From assembly GCA_021826605.1 (NCBI GenBank), contig JAKAZF010000207.1, positions 1 through 5,908 of the forward strand: a stretch of DNA of 5,908 nt. Reading direction: 5' to 3'. Shown here one piece after another: positions 703-5,908 of this stretch. The notes beneath the pieces are model-generated. The model made no database searches, was not told where the DNA came from, and was given only the letters and a program-made list of their open reading frames with translations. Numbering within the stretch: the first letter of the stretch is position 1; the number at the start of each line of letters is the position of its first letter. This stretch comes from Planctomycetota bacterium. GTDB taxonomy: Bacteria > Planctomycetota > Phycisphaerae > WQYP01. The position numbers were made by a program, and so were the translations under genes.

Positions 703-2733
703 TCAGCTTTGTGACTGTATGCGGCGGAATCGCGCCAGGGCCATTAACGGGAAATACAGCCGATATAAATGATATTTCAGGTAGAACACGCGCGGAAAAC
801 CCGTTCCGGTAAACCACTGTTCGTCCCAATTTCCTTCCGAATTCTGCGAATCAATCAGCCAGCGAATGGCTTTTTGAACCGCCGGATCGTCCACACCCGA
901 TGCGGCTAACAATCCCATCGCACCCCATGCGGTTTGCGATGCGGTACTTGGCCCCCGGCCTTTGAGTTCCGGGTTTTCATACGTCTGGCATGATTCGCCC
1001 CAGCTTCCATCCGGCTTCTGGCATGAACGCAACCAATCGGCGGCCTTGCGGATAAACCGCTGGTCCATTTTTTCGCCAACGGCATTCAAACCCGTCAGCA
1101 CCTGCCAGGTGCCATAAATGTAATTAACGCCCCATCGGCCGAACCAGCAGCCCTCTTTTTCCTGCGTTTCTTTCAGGAAATTCACCGCTTTGCGTACCGC
1201 CGGATGCTTATTGCCTATTCCGCAATGCCCCAGGCACTCCAGCGTGCGTCCCGCTATATCCGGGCACGATGGATCCTGAATGGCGTTATGATCCGCAAAT
1301 GGAACATGCTCCAGAATGGGCCGGTTCCGTGTGCGGTCAAATGCCGCCCAGCCGCCGTCATCATTCTGCATGGCCAACAGCCAATTCACGCCCCGGGCCA
1401 CCGCCGCTTCCGCGGCTTTTCCGCCCAGCCGCTTCAGCGCCATGGTCACCATCGCGGTATCATCAACATCCGGATAATGCGGATTGTTAAATTCAAAATA
1501 CCAGCCGCTGGGTTCACAATCCGGGCAGTTTTTCATCCAGTCACTGCCCGTGCGACATTCCTTGGATAACAGCCACGCCGCCGTCTTTCCCGCCACCGCA
1601 TGCTCCGGCTGCATGTGCGTTTCCGCCAATGCATGCAGTGCAATTCCGGTATCCCATACCGGCGACCAGCAGGGTTGAATGCGAATCGTGTCATTTTCTT
1701 CAATAAATAAGTCACGCAAATCTTTTTGCGCTTTGACCACTACCGGGTGGTCATCGGAATAACCCAATATCCGCAGAACAATGAGAATGTAGACCATTGG
1801 CGGAAAAATGGCCCCCAGGCCGTCGCATCCTTCCATGTGCTCCAGCAGCCACTTTTCCGCTTCCCGGATTGCCAATGGCCGCAATGGTGTAATCGCCGTT
1901 TTTTCATAGCGTTTCAGCGACAAATCCAGCAGCAGAAACATCTCCCGCCAGCTTCGCGGCAGCCCCTTCAACCGCCCCACCGTGCTGTTGGCGGCCTCGG
2001 AATCATTAAACAATTCCGATATCCCCTTTTCCGCCGACAATTTTCGCACGGGGCGATACGCGCTGACAATCGCCAGCGGCAGAATCATCGTGCGACTCCA
2101 GGCGGAAACCGCATAGAGGTTAAAGTAGATCCATTTCGGCAGGAGAATAATTTCCGGCGGAATACTCGGGCACGCATCGTAGCTGATTTGCCCCAGCGCC
2201 GCGAGATAAAACTTTGAAAAGCTGTTGCATTGCTCAGCTCCGCCAAGATGCCGAATGACCTGTCGCGCCACACGCATATGCGGAGCGTCCGGGTCATCAC
2301 CCATAAGCTTCAGGGCAAAATAGCCTTTAACCGTTCCGCTTAAATCGCTGTTGCCCCCGGGAAACAGGCTCCAACCCCCGTCCGCTTGTTGATTGCTCCG
2401 CAGATAATTGGCTATTTTGGGCAGAGCCGGATCATTTTCCTGGCTTAAAATAAATTTCAGCAGTATATATTCTGATTCCAGAATACTGTCGCCCTGCAAC
2501 TCTCCCACCCAATAGCCATCGGCATGCTGCTTGGCCAATAACGCCGCCGTGGCTCGGTCTACGGCGGCATCCAGTTCGCTAGTAGTCAATTCCATCTGAT
2601 CGATCATAGTTTCCAGTTCAGTCTGGGAAAGCGTTTCCAAGGCTTCCAATGATGGTTGAGACGGTAAGGCAACATCGCGCAGTGTCTGCGTACCAACCGC
2701 CATTGCTGCCCGTGCTTGCCGAGTATTTCGCAA
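703..2733 (-). CDS. shc: Squalene-hopene cyclase
   Basis: Class II triterpene cyclase that folds squalene into hopene (or hopanol), the committed step of hopanoid synthesis; family members are monotopic membrane proteins. The 676-residue product carries the catalytic DxDD motif as DVDD at 425-428 (DVDDTAM). This distinguishes it from oxidosqualene cyclases, which have DCTA/DCTS there. QW-type repeats are seen at about 69-75 (QHADGYW), 114-120, 459-465 (QNDDGGW), 527-533, 575-581 (QKPDGSW) and 633-639. The GRWGVNYIYGTW (535-546) and STASQTAW (599-606) blocks are typical of the family. The start is TTG, chosen because AGAGG (2744-2740) lies 6 bases upstream; an internal ATG at residue 11 lacks such a site. 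The roughly 50 residues before the conserved core make it somewhat longer than the 631-residue Alicyclobacillus enzyme. It appears monocistronic, and no hpn genes are visible. Confidence 0.96.
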   Translation of the reverse strand: MRNTRQARAAMAVGTQTLRDVALPSQPSLEALETLSQTELETMIDQMELTTSELDAAVDRATAALLAKQHADGYWVGELQGDSILESEYILLKFILSQENDPALPKIANYLRSNQQADGGWSLFPGGNSDLSGTVKGYFALKLMGDDPDAPHMRVARQVIRHLGGAEQCNSFSKFYLAALGQISYDACPSIPPEIILLPKWIYFNLYAVSAWSRTMILPLAIVSAYRPVRKLSAEKGISELFNDSEAANSTVGRLKGLPRSWREMFLLLDLSLKRYEKTAITPLRPLAIREAEKWLLEHMEGCDGLGAIFPPMVYILIVLRILGYSDDHPVVVKAQKDLRDLFIEENDTIRIQPCWSPVWDTGIALHALAETHMQPEHAVAGKTAAWLLSKECRTGSDWMKNCPDCEPSGWYFEFNNPHYPDVDDTAMVTMALKRLGGKAAEAAVARGVNWLLAMQNDDGGWAAFDRTRNRPILEHVPFADHNAIQDPSCPDIAGRTLECLGHCGIGNKHPAVRKAVNFLKETQEKEGCWFGRWGVNYIYGTWQVLTGLNAVGEKMDQRFIRKAADWLRSCQKPDGSWGESCQTYENPELKGRGPSTASQTAWGAMGLLAASGVDDPAVQKAIRWLIDSQNSEGNWDEQWFTGTGFPRVFYLKYHLYRLYFPLMALARFRRIQSQS

Positions 2734-2739
2734 CTTTAA

Positions 2740-2744
2740 CCTCT
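2740..2744 (-). promoter_or_regulatory. Ribosome binding site of shc
   Basis: AGAGG on the minus strand, 6 bases before a TTG codon. It is the main reason for choosing the TTG start at 2733 over the ATG ten codons downstream. Confidence 0.6.
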
Positions 2745-2880
2745 ATAACTGCCGGCCTCACACGCCCGGCACGGTTTTTTCCATCCGCCAACGTCCAAAA
2801 CGTTAGCAGAACTTGCACCTGTCGGCAAGAGACAAGCGGTGCGCCAGGCCGGGTTGCATTCCCCGCCACGGTTCGCGTCA

Positions 2881-2904
2881 CCCGGCACCAGGCAACAAGC
2901 CGGG
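2881..2904. repeat. GC-rich hairpin in the shc upstream spacer
   Basis: CCCGGC and GCCGGG form a perfect 6-bp inverted repeat with a 12-base loop. The CCCGGCAC half resembles the palindrome at 572-585, so it may be another, more diverged member of the intergenic palindrome set. No T-run follows on either strand. Confidence 0.35.
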
Positions 2905-3113
2905 GAGCCGGCACAGTCAGGATTATCCGTATGGATCAGCACGGGGCTGCGGTCATGCTCCCATGATCAGGCCGGAAGGCTCACTGGGCAGGCAGCTTGC
3001 CCGGCTGATTCGCCAGGAAACTCAGGCATATCGGCGATTCTCTCAATTATTGCAGCAATCCTCGGTCCAATTTCCCCGTACGATTTCTCGACGCCGTGGG
3101 GCCTGGCCGCATG

Positions 3114-3140
3114 CCGTTGGCGATTTTTCACCCGTTGGCG
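3114..3140. repeat. Direct repeat CCGTTGGCG, 18-base period
   Basis: CCGTTGGCG occurs at 3114-3122 and again at 3132-3140, exactly 18 bases apart start to start. It lies about 100-125 bases downstream of the hsdM stop and 380-410 bases upstream of shc. Two half-sites spaced under two helical turns could be a protein-binding site, but nothing else supports a function. Confidence 0.35.
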
Positions 3141-3238
3141 GGAAAGCAAACTGTATTGGCCGGTGAAGTTTTTTGAGACAGACTGGGAGACACAACGGGA
3201 TTGTTGTACCTCCGTTTTCCGCCGGGCACCCACGGTGC

Positions 3239-4723
3239 TTACCCCTTCAGGCTATTGAGCACGGTGGTGAACTGGTCAATGGCCGTCTGGAGGTCATCGG
3301 TAATTTCCTGAGCCAGCACATCCGGTTCGGGAAGATTTTCGGAGTCTTCAAGGCTTTTATCCTTGAGCCAGAAGATGTCCAGACTTAATTTATCCCGTTT
3401 GGTGAGTTCCTCATAATCATAACACCGCCAGCGGCCATCGGGATTGGTTTGATTCCATGTTGGCTTGCGGCTGTGCCGGTTTTCAGGATTAAAGCACGCC
3501 ACAAATTCATCAAGGTCGGAGCGTTTGAGGGGATTTTCCTTGAGCGTAAAATGCATATTGGTGCGCAGGTCATAAACCCACAATTTTTTAGTCCACGCCA
3601 TTTCCTGGCCGGGGCGGTTGTCAAAGAACAGCACATTGGCTTTGACGCCCTGGGCGTAAAATATGCCCGTCGGTAATCGCAGCAGCGTATGAACATCGCA
3701 TTTTTGCAGTAAATTCCGCCGAACAGTTTCGCCGGCACCGCCTTCAAACAACACATTATCCGGCACGACAATGGCGCAGCGGCCGTTGGTGCCGAGCAGC
3801 GTTTTTACATGCTGCAGAAAATTCAACTGCTTGTTTTTGGTGGTGGTCCAGAAATCCTGCCGCTCATAGGCGACATCTTCTTTTTCCAGTTCACCATCTT
3901 CTCCCACAATGGCAATGCTGCTTTTCTTTCCAAACGGCGGATTGGTCAGAACCATGCTGAAGCGTTTTCCCGGATCAGCGGCAAGGCTATCCACGCCGCT
4001 TTGGATCGGGCAGGGATCGGCCTCAATACCATGCAGCAACAGGTTCATGATGCACAGCCGGGCTGTGCCGGCGACAAGTTCCCAACCTGTTACAAAACTT
4101 TTACGGAGATGCTTTTTCTGATCGGGATCCAGCTTTTTACCGAACTGTTTGACAACATAGTCATGGGCCGCCAATAGAAATCCACCGGTGCCGCAGGCCG
4201 GATCGCAAACGGTATCCTCCGGTTGCGGCCGCATGACATCCACAATGGCCTTGATTAATTCCCGCGGGGTGAAATATTGCCCGGCCCCCTTGGGCGACTC
4301 GGCCGCACTTTTGGCAAGCAGTCCTTCATAGATGTCTCCCTTTACGTCGGCCTCCATGGTGCTCCACGTTTCGGCACCGATCAGTTCAGTAATAAGCCTG
4401 CGAAGGGCGGCAGGGTTTTGTATATCCTGCCGGGCCTTTTTGAAAATTTCACCCAGCATGCCGGGCTTACGGCCAAGTTCCTCGAGAATATGCCGATAGT
4501 GGACCTCCAGTTCGTCGCCGTCTTTTTTCAGCAGTGTCGGCCAATCCAGCCCTGCGGGCACGATCCGCGGCCGGTTATACGGCGGGCGGGTCAGTTCATC
4601 AGCCATTTTCAGGAACAGCAGGAACGTGATCTGCTCGGTATAGGCCATATAGGAAAGGCCATCATCGCGCAGGACATGGGCAAAATTCCAGGCTTTATTG
4701 ACGATTTGTTGGGAATCGCTCAT
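3239..4723 (-). CDS. hsdM: Type I restriction-modification DNA methyltransferase subunit HsdM
   Basis: N6-adenine methyltransferase subunit of a type I system; in the family two HsdM subunits plus one HsdS methylate a bipartite target using S-adenosylmethionine. The 494-residue protein has the HsdM N-terminal helical domain (roughly 1-140), then the GQYFTPRELI block just before motif I. Motif I is DPACGTGGF at 174-182 (SAM binding) and motif IV is NPPFG at 261-265 (catalytic). Length and motifs are those of an intact enzyme. The ATG overlaps the stop of the upstream small gene by ATGA, and GAGG lies 8 bases before it, so translation is probably coupled. No hsdS or hsdR follows: past the stop there is a 505-base spacer and then shc. 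The gene is therefore solitary within this window and may depend on an HsdS encoded elsewhere. Confidence 0.94.
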   Translation of the reverse strand: MSDSQQIVNKAWNFAHVLRDDGLSYMAYTEQITFLLFLKMADELTRPPYNRPRIVPAGLDWPTLLKKDGDELEVHYRHILEELGRKPGMLGEIFKKARQDIQNPAALRRLITELIGAETWSTMEADVKGDIYEGLLAKSAAESPKGAGQYFTPRELIKAIVDVMRPQPEDTVCDPACGTGGFLLAAHDYVVKQFGKKLDPDQKKHLRKSFVTGWELVAGTARLCIMNLLLHGIEADPCPIQSGVDSLAADPGKRFSMVLTNPPFGKKSSIAIVGEDGELEKEDVAYERQDFWTTTKNKQLNFLQHVKTLLGTNGRCAIVVPDNVLFEGGAGETVRRNLLQKCDVHTLLRLPTGIFYAQGVKANVLFFDNRPGQEMAWTKKLWVYDLRTNMHFTLKENPLKRSDLDEFVACFNPENRHSRKPTWNQTNPDGRWRCYDYEELTKRDKLSLDIFWLKDKSLEDSENLPEPDVLAQEITDDLQTAIDQFTTVLNSLKG

Positions 4724-5019
4724 GCACCTGCCCTCTTGTTTTTTCCACTCAATCGGGATTTTCTTCTCGGCGATTTAATACGAACAACTTTGTGATCATG
4801 TGCCATCAAAAACGCATCGGCTTTGCGTGCGGACGGCTGTGCCTGCCTCACAGCCGCGGCAGGACGCTTTGCACCAATATTGACAATCTTACCGGCTCGC
4901 AGAACGTAACAAGGCGTGCCGGTCTGGATAGCCAATCGCAAAGCGCTGCGAGCGGCGCGGCGCAGTGCGGGCAGAGCACCAAGCAAATCAGTATCTTTGG
5001 GAAGTCTGCTGTTTCTCAT
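4720..5019 (-). CDS. Small basic protein, probable antitoxin partner of the zeta-like kinase
   Basis: 99 residues. The N-terminal half (about 10-52) contains LRRAARSALRLAIQTGTP followed by YVLRAGKIVNIG. I associate this R-x-A-x-x-TGTPxxVxxxGKIV pattern with small proteins encoded beside COG4185 zeta-like kinases, from memory and without a search. The C-terminal 50 residues are basic and low in complexity (KSPRRKSRLSGKNKR) and look disordered. Its ATG overlaps the kinase stop by ATGA, with GGAGA 6 bases upstream; its own stop overlaps the hsdM start by ATGA. Lying after the toxin, it has the opposite order to the classical epsilon-zeta operon. An antitoxin role is inferred from size, pairing and coupling; a DNA- or RNA-binding accessory role is also possible. 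Confidence 0.7.
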   Translation of the reverse strand: MRNSRLPKDTDLLGALPALRRAARSALRLAIQTGTPCYVLRAGKIVNIGAKRPAAAVRQAQPSARKADAFLMAHDHKVVRIKSPRRKSRLSGKNKRAGA

Positions 5020-5534
5020 GCCGATTCTCCAAACTCAAGGGGTTGGGGCGTGTCGCCCGAACAATCATATATTATCCATTCATCCACAAGCGGGCGATAA
5101 ATTTCAAGAAAGTTTTTCCAGCCGGCCGTGAAGCGCGAACGTATGACGTCTGCCGGCACATCATGCCCTCCCTGCAACACACGCGCTCTCACGCGATGCA
5201 GTGCCAACGCAACGTGCGGCAACCGCAAGAACACGATCTTCACGACGTAACCTGCCATCTTCCATTCTCGAATGCGATGAACGTACGTTCTCCCGGCCAG
5301 TGTGGTCTCAAAAGCAAAGCTTTTGCCAATTAACATCAATTTATCCATGCGATCCAGCATGATGCGGGCCGCTTCGACCGCCGCAACCTCCGGGACTAGC
5401 GGTGAAAGCCCCTGGGCGATTAGATCGGCGTTGATAAAGTCGGGGCATTGAGCCTCGCGAAGCAAAAACTCCCTTGCAAATGTCGTCTTCCCCGCCCCGT
5501 TGGGCCCTGCGATAATTACTATACGTTTCTTCAC
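5016..5534 (-). CDS. Zeta-toxin-like P-loop kinase (COG4185 type)
   Basis: Zeta toxins are cytoplasmic kinases; the classical ones phosphorylate UDP-N-acetylglucosamine and so block cell-wall synthesis. The substrate of this shorter chromosomal branch is not known to me. Numbered from the GTG start (172 residues), the Walker A motif is GPNGAGKTT at 10-18 with Lys16. Then come FINADLIAQGLSP (Asp37), FAFETTLAGRTY (Glu76) and a basic lid RVRARVLQGGHDVP around 114-127. All are features of the family and no key residue is missing. I prefer GTG at 5534 because family members begin just before the KKRIVIIAGPNGAGK strand, and because a TATAAT box at 5590-5585 would give a leader of about 44 bases. 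A TTG at 5573 would add 13 residues but leave almost no leader. It is the first gene of the ATGA-coupled operon with the small partner and hsdM. Confidence 0.88.
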   Translation of the reverse strand: MKKRIVIIAGPNGAGKTTFAREFLLREAQCPDFINADLIAQGLSPLVPEVAAVEAARIMLDRMDKLMLIGKSFAFETTLAGRTYVHRIREWKMAGYVVKIVFLRLPHVALALHRVRARVLQGGHDVPADVIRSRFTAGWKNFLEIYRPLVDEWIIYDCSGDTPQPLEFGESA

Positions 5535-5584
5535 GCGGGCAATCTCAAAACCTGTAACAATTTCACCGGGCAAACCATGGCCGC

Positions 5585-5632: not shown

Positions 5633-5707
5633 GGGGTTGGGGAACTCCGGGGGGAGCTCCGGGCAAGCCCGGGGGTATTTGTTTGGTGGCGGGGGTGGGA
5701 TGGGGGG
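5633..5707 (+). repeat. G-rich palindromic tract with tandem 12-mers
   Basis: Two adjacent 12-base units, GGGGAACTCCGG (5639-5650) and GGGGAGCTCCGG (5651-5662), differ at one base. They run into a hairpin CCGGGC-AA-GCCCGG (5659-5672) preceded by GGAG (5653-5656). G-tracts at 5633-5636, 5639-5642, 5649-5654 and 5661-5663 are separated by loops of 2, 6 and 6 bases, which fits the canonical G-quadruplex pattern. A second G-run cluster follows at 5691-5707. The tract sits between the divergent kinase operon and the transposase-like gene. A GGAG-plus-hairpin next to a RAYT-like gene is what a REP element would look like. Confidence 0.5.
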
Positions 5708-5723
5708 AATTACAATTGGTGGC

Positions 5724-5908
5724 ATGAGGGAATCTGTTGAAACGTGGGGTAGGACGTTGGCCATTCATACGGTCTGGACGAGGTATTTATCATGGTTGCC
5801 GGGGGATCAGCGCGGCCATTGGTCGCCGTTGTTTGATTTTTACGGGCAGCTTGTGCGTGACGGGCACCAGATCAATGCCGGTGATGAAGCCACACGCCAG
5901 GCCGCCAT
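5724..5908 (+). CDS. REP-associated/IS200-type (Y1) transposase-like protein, N-terminal fragment
   Basis: The open frame continues past the window end; 61 residues are visible. After a short lead it reads AIHTVWTRYLSWLPGDQRGHW and onward, resembling the N-terminal strand of RAYT/Y1_Tnp-family single-strand transposases (typically TxTTYGTWLPGDxRGW). These HUH enzymes cut and join REP or IS200-type hairpin DNA. The HUH motif and catalytic tyrosine would lie beyond the edge, so activity cannot be judged. ATG 5724 is chosen because family-like sequence begins soon after it. An in-frame ATG at 5700 would add eight Gly/Ile-rich residues inside the G-rich tract. No clear Shine-Dalgarno distinguishes them. 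Family assignment rests on recall of the motif, hence moderate confidence. Confidence 0.6.
   Translation, partial: MRESVETWGRTLAIHTVWTRYLSWLPGDQRGHWSPLFDFYGQLVRDGHQINAGDEATRQAA

Follow-up and report, generated by a model that had tools for sequence, protein, structure and literature searches.

What is the gene for a small zeta-like kinase doing in front of the gene for a type I DNA methyltransferase? The question is raised by a stretch of 5,908 nucleotides from a Planctomycetota bacterium (assembly GCA_021826605.1, contig JAKAZF010000207.1; the whole stretch is referred to here as the window), on whose minus strand a kinase gene, the gene for a small partner protein and hsdM follow one another (Table 1). 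A first-pass annotation, made from the sequence alone, had described three intact genes that overlap successively by ATGA, each overlap being preceded by a ribosome site, and had concluded that they appear to be made as one unit. Both overlaps are present where they had been placed, plausible ribosome sites lie ahead of them (GGAG for the partner gene, AGAGG/AGG for hsdM, as judged by eye), and co-translation of the kinase, its partner and HsdM is likely. The answer that we favor, and consider probable, is that kinase and partner form an autonomous module of the toxin-antitoxin type that is carried as cargo by restriction operons, and that the window represents one such capture.

The kinase matches the Zeta_toxin family (PF06414) with 35.4 bits, against a Pfam cut-off of 22.3, and its relatives number in the thousands (7,998 of 7,999 scored candidates). 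Viral contigs that were searched contained no relative, and the phage records searched yielded one weak match. Among 80 loci, the partner gene lies directly downstream of the kinase gene in 75 (72 with stricter limits), is part of a longer frame in two, and is fused to the kinase in three. Since ATGA ends the kinase gene in 53 of the 75 loci with a partner downstream, the kinase/partner junction is a trait of the family. The natural fusions are found in L041 (6425-7159) and L080 (6714-7442), from Caenimonas and from a Comamonadaceae metagenome-assembled genome (MAG), respectively, and, as a weak case, in L036 (6974-7729) from an Akkermansiaceae MAG; a fourth candidate, L114, was discarded because its frame does not stay in register with that of the kinase. 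Two small co-translated genes with a conserved pairing, as type II toxin-antitoxin systems have them, are thus seen in the adjacency, in the ATGA junctions and in the fusions, and we infer that the label of a toxin-antitoxin pair applies. For the partner itself, Pfam gave no match that reached the cut-off, and NCBIfam and PADLOC gave none at all. In a structural model of a fused protein (pTM 0.69), its conserved core is predicted to be one helix plus a β-hairpin, followed by a variable tail; because this model carries no inter-domain confidence, we claim no kinase-partner interface.

Comparison of structures shows that the kinase resembles both zeta and Pnkp, with polynucleotide kinases as the top matches, slightly above zeta. 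This ranking fits a different arrangement, in which the kinase is not a toxin and would phosphorylate either a small metabolite or the end of a nucleic acid, the small protein being its activator or targeting subunit; the natural fusions are as compatible with such a subunit as they are with an antitoxin, and no antitoxin-like domain is recognizable in the partner. Pnk enzymes, however, require an arginine three residues past the aspartate that corresponds to Asp37 of the kinase, and this residue is alanine in 80 of 81 kinases (the remaining one has a gap). The company kept by the pair, namely toxin-antitoxin-like and defense genes on the Synechocystis plasmid pSYSG and in the planctomycetal locus L140, also speaks against a non-toxic function, which we regard as unlikely.

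The pair is found inside restriction operons more than once. Restriction genes are located near it in 13 of the 80 loci, in every one of them co-oriented with the kinase; eleven of these loci are of type I, and two (L029 and L066) lie beside a fused restriction-methyltransferase. Once searches for HsdS and HsdR, the seeds of which came partly from the linked loci, had been added, 16 of the 80 loci had some hsd match, all on the kinase strand, and 13 were counted as linked. The three left uncounted were L002 (a match of 87 amino acids, 6.6 kb away), L052 (a weak helicase match) and L065 (a 49-amino-acid hsdM fragment); two weak matches to the hsdM profile, L037 and L064, were likewise disregarded. 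An N6_Mtase gene, found from the HsdM protein of the window, is present in 10 of the 80 loci, with 0.72 expected by chance (P 3.3e-9); with L029 left out, nine such loci remain (P 5.1e-8). The chance rate is based on 134 N6_Mtase matches in 40 genomes with 168.3 Mb (135 were used in the calculation). The adjacency that the first-pass annotation had met in one genome is therefore above chance and extends beyond that genome: linked loci recur, pSYSG included, and a genome of the same species (G060) carries the same genes.

Pfam confirms hsdM, hsdS and hsdR in L008, L015, L018 (where hsdR is represented by its motor part), L023, L026, L027, L033 and L074, as well as hsdM in L054 and hsdS in L020; a piece of hsdR in L040 has no Pfam match, yet is 81% identical to the hsdR of L008. 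The gene order is hsdM-hsdS-kinase-partner-hsdR in L008, L015, L018 and L033, and hsdR-hsdS-kinase-partner-hsdM in L023, L026, L027 and L074, so that the pair is clearly placed between hsd genes in all of these loci, and likewise in L140. A confirmed hsdS is always situated upstream of the pair (9/9), within 49 bases in eight cases and at 793 bases in L026. We class L029 and L066 as restriction-linked and not as type I because in L029 the methyltransferase is part of a fused HSDR_N_2/N6_Mtase protein, and Pfam does not recognize the gene that had been taken for hsdS. In L029 (206-4913), the pair follows this fused restriction-methyltransferase and an unassigned protein of 481 amino acids. L066 (6412-7516) looks like a rearranged sister of L029, with a neighboring gene that derives from the same kind of fused protein.

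The linked HsdM proteins, those of the window and of pSYSG included, fall into six groups that share at most about 32% identity with each other over long alignments. In a tree of 94 kinases, 15 of them labeled as linked (including L029, L066, L140 and the window), 12 changes of the linked label are needed, and well-supported branches impose at least four of them; 24 of 500 label shuffles do as well as this tree, in which support is weak for 43 of the 90 inner branches. Every one of the 13 linked loci retains the partner. No convincing restriction gene lies near the pair in the other 67 of the 80 loci, and as 37 of these have at least 5 kb of sequence on both sides, the absence is not merely a matter of short contigs.

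These data bear directly on the analogy with PrrC, through which the first-pass annotation had suggested that loss of the modification complex might release the kinase. The prrC gene sits between hsdS and hsdR, and to our knowledge PrrC has no small partner. PrrC is an anticodon nuclease encoded within the type IC operon of EcoprrI; the restriction enzyme holds it, and infection releases it (PMC3874165, PMC12707154). In a corresponding guard arrangement, the type I complex would keep the kinase inactive, and inhibition of the complex by a phage would free it. In both cases a type I operon indeed harbors an accessory gene, the pair occupies the prrC position within complete hsdM-S-R operons in L008, L015, L018 and L033, and its same-strand placement and tight junctions suit the idea. 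The protein, however, is a zeta/Pnkp-fold kinase and not an anticodon nuclease, the linked kinases belong to more than one lineage, their HsdM companions belong to six groups, and the window shows hsdM alone. No modification complex that could release the kinase is demonstrable, as the window contains neither hsdS nor hsdR (its upstream side is cut at the window end) and G060 yielded no homolog of the HsdR found in the relatives. A guarded kinase would have no need of a partner; because the partner is retained in every linked locus and most loci have no restriction genes nearby, such a guard is less likely than carriage of the pair as cargo, and we judge it to be quite unlikely.

The place at which the window carries the pair was studied in 40 Planctomycetota loci of its HsdM family, 29 of them closer (L157-L185) and 11 more distant (L186-L196). 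The gene order in this family is hsdR-hsdS-[slot]-hsdM. An hsdS gene was seen in 19 of the 29 closer loci, always upstream of hsdM, which it adjoins in seven; at least one open reading frame (ORF) lies between the two genes in the other 12 (in L179, only short ones on the opposite strand). Neither hsdS nor hsdR was found downstream of hsdM in any of the 29 closer loci, within about 2 kb of downstream sequence; in eight of the 11 more distant loci, hsdS is located downstream. In or beside the slot are PIN proteins (L158, L159, L164), a Y1 transposase (L178), an AAA_21 protein (L171), a schlafen-like protein (L185), a UG14 reverse transcriptase (L181) and PDC-S28 (L160); in L164 and L181, where little upstream sequence is available, no hsdS was seen. 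The nearer relative L105 carries, on the opposite strand between hsdS and hsdM (1183-3696), an Mrr-type nuclease domain together with a NACHT NTPase (its PADLOC match, mad8, is weak), and another nearer relative, L104, has a metallo-β-lactamase-fold protein in or beside the slot. L140 holds SIR2, pieces of HerA, DUF3800, a nucleotidyltransferase, DUF2283, a distant kinase and the partner between hsdS and hsdM (7810-14560). The slots of L173 (11129-12871), L168 (4532-5515) and L104 (4120-5475) encode proteins that matched neither Pfam nor PADLOC at the limits applied; they are candidates for unknown defense genes.

The slot also puts the overlap with hsdM into perspective. ATGA joins the partner gene to hsdM in L026 as well, and in L023 it precedes an incomplete copy of the beginning of hsdM, the complete hsdM of that locus starting about 0.7 kb further on. 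In L174 and L175 the same motif joins hsdS to hsdM, whereas in L159, L176 and L182 the gene joined to hsdM is a different one, as it is in L171 after a doubtful ORF; L161 was removed from this list after its junction had been read. Since ATGA before hsdM recurs with hsdS and with other genes, it is a habit of the slot and not special to the pair.

How the pair may have come to lie beside hsdM in the window can be judged from its relatives. G060 carries the kinase with 99% and HsdM with 100% identity; its contig departs from the window from about position 5640 on and stops some 0.7 kb ahead of the start of the kinase gene. Three relatives of HsdM with 89-91% amino acid identity, two of them cut by contig ends, are encoded in the order hsdR-hsdS-[other genes]-hsdM without the pair (hsdS is truncated in L103), and their HsdR proteins are 95-98% conserved. 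A homolog of this HsdR was not found in G060, a genome in pieces, and with no cognate hsdR there, the locus of the window looks rearranged. A search with the HsdS proteins of the relatives gave no homolog in G060 either; this search is a weak one, because it also missed the truncated hsdS of G061. The sole HsdS Pfam match in G060 lies on a different contig and is part of another type I system. The second type I system of G060, which is complete (L102 9234-15454), has the order hsdR-hsdS-80 aa ORF-hsdM, so that there, too, the slot is occupied, by a small ORF. The nearest relatives of the pair for which flanks are available, L001 (86%), L091 (89%) and L084 (74%, on a short contig), are all without hsdM. 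DNA homology to the hsdM genes of the relatives begins at the hsdM start codon, to within two bases (blastn), and hsdM has remained intact, the comparison with L104 showing 245 third-position versus 90 first-and-second-position differences in this gene.

Such a sharp boundary, the hsdM-free nearest relatives of the pair, and the rarity of linkage among Planctomycetota would be expected if pair and hsdM were chance neighbors joined by a deletion, without any functional link. That the same kind of neighborhood recurs in many lineages, always co-oriented, makes this explanation very unlikely.

A REP-like palindrome and a divergent IS200-like transposase gene that runs off the window lie beyond the kinase gene. 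The region 5657-5887 is 71.6% identical to L104 7608-7841, inside an ORF with the Pfam domain Y1_Tnp, and the GC core of the palindrome is common to L001, L104 and L090. Divergent IS200-like (REP-type) transposase genes are found beside the kinase in the window and in L001 (2006-2640), and beside hsdM in L104 (7169-7894). We read these findings, together with those from the relatives, as a probable capture of the pair in the slot, followed or accompanied by a rearrangement around the REP-type transposase. The HsdM protein of the window matches N6_Mtase (224 bits) and HsdM_N in Pfam and the MTase_I model of PADLOC (623 bits), and 2okc is its best relative of solved structure. An Rfam scan of the window gave nothing that reached gathering scores, and in a promoter scan, shuffled sequence scored as well.

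Table 1. Features of the window (positions count from its first nucleotide)
Feature	Position	Strand	Remarks
Kinase gene	5016..5534	-	small P-loop kinase of Zeta_toxin/AAA_33 type; 172 aa; GTG start at 5534
Kinase gene, alternative TTG start at 5573	5016-5573	-	185 aa
Partner gene	4720..5019	-	small protein; 99 aa; 15 homologs found
hsdM	3239..4723	-	type I DNA methyltransferase subunit HsdM; intact; 494 aa
ATGA overlap, kinase stop/partner start	5016..5019	-	
ATGA overlap, partner stop/hsdM start	4720..4723	-	
REP-like palindrome	5657..5674		CTCCGGGC-AA-GCCCGGGG; between kinase and transposase genes
IS200-like (Y1_Tnp) transposase gene, 5' part	5724..5908	+	divergent; runs off the window
Squalene-hopene cyclase gene	703-2733	-	complete; downstream of hsdM; TIGR01507, 673 bits

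The transposase that adjoins the pair in the window and in L001, and hsdM in L104, is also compatible with an addiction function, in which the pair would stabilize the restriction locus or a mobile segment by killing cells that lose it. The kinase is encoded on 10 plasmid records, with a small gene after it in all five that were read, and it has toxin-antitoxin-like neighbors on pSYSG. Yet the strain-level change beside the pair, seen between the window and G060, and the lack of hsdM in its closest relatives indicate that the pair does not keep the combination together over time; to such a stabilizing role we would give only a low probability.

On pSYSG (L156), the genes are arranged in the order hsdM (ORF 6652-8346; N6_Mtase, 184 bits), DUF433, PIN-like, hsdS, nucleotidyltransferase, kinase, partner, DUF4433 and macro domain. 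The DUF4433 and macro-domain genes and the small nucleotidyltransferase gene flank the pair within this type I locus (1920-4655); the first two we take to resemble DarTG. Kopfmann et al. (2016) listed sll8001-ssl8005 beside type I genes as related to toxin-antitoxin systems, below the criteria of that study (PMC4963859). This defense island has hsdM, hsdS, the kinase and the partner, and the accessible part of the paper does not describe the latter two as a kinase-partner module. From the gene order, we take sll8004 to be the kinase gene and ssl8003 the partner gene; our literature search found no other paper that names them.

Beyond that list, no description of zeta kinases within hsd loci was found among the matches listed, in a search that mostly did not cover subscription journals; the parts seen of two papers mention zeta toxins and hsd genes only separately (PMC6211672, PMC6581861), and no paper was found for COG4185 by name. 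With the epsilon/zeta systems the kinase shares the Zeta_toxin domain; it differs from them and from PezAT in being a minimal core of 172 amino acids whose gene comes first, and no epsilon- or PezA-type antitoxin gene was recognized next to it. The zeta-like kinase AvrRxo1-ORF1 likewise has its own antitoxin, ORF2, but AvrRxo1 is a type III-secreted protein of plant pathogens (PMC4938570), whereas the kinase described here is short and lies beside restriction genes. TgvAB from VPI-2 of Vibrio cholerae is similar in that its two genes lie within a type I operon and work as a system of their own; it is a GmrSD-like type IV restriction system and no kinase pair (PMC11411939).

We therefore return to the autonomous module carried as restriction-operon cargo. 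In this scheme, the small zeta/polynucleotide-kinase-like P-loop kinase would be the effector, and the helix-plus-hairpin protein its neutralizer, made in amounts coupled to those of the kinase. The module would be mobile and would have been captured repeatedly in restriction-modification operons, mostly of type I and usually right behind hsdS, whereby it may share their expression and spread. In the window, the capture would have taken place in the slot between hsdS and hsdM that such planctomycetal systems have, hsdS and hsdR being displaced or lost near REP/IS200-type transposase activity. The pair might then provide a second, growth-arresting layer of defense, or help to keep the locus, without needing HsdM. 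The two-gene module, its conservation, its embedding in restriction operons and the slot are observed; toxicity of the kinase, its neutralization, mobility, and any defense role are what we infer from these comparisons.

Several points weigh against this reading. The partner has no recognizable antitoxin or DNA-binding domain in Pfam, NCBIfam or PADLOC, and we found toxicity data for no member of the family. The chance estimate for the N6_Mtase genes ignores the general clustering of defense genes. Among 40 Planctomycetota kinase loci (40 of 64 matches among 392 genomes), only L140 is linked, and only 16 of these mostly more distant loci have a partner recognized by the model, which distant partners may escape, as in L140. 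Because the upstream side of the window is cut, the presumed loss of hsdS and hsdR rests on the fragmented G060, whose contig ends there.

A bolder extension, which we hold to be unlikely, would see in the pair a widespread kinase-based defense module, taken up by restriction operons on at least four and perhaps about ten separate occasions as a back-up for when restriction fails or is inhibited, and hence a counterpart of PrrC with its own antidote. Accessory genes in type I operons were previously known from few cases. What is new is a kinase-partner pair captured repeatedly, usually behind hsdS and beside six groups of HsdM proteins, and a planctomycetal slot between hsdS and hsdM that holds several kinds of defense gene and is thus a place to look for unknown ones. 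As Synechocystis PCC 6803 possesses a copy of the pair, the ideas of a toxin, an antidote and a guard are directly testable in this organism.

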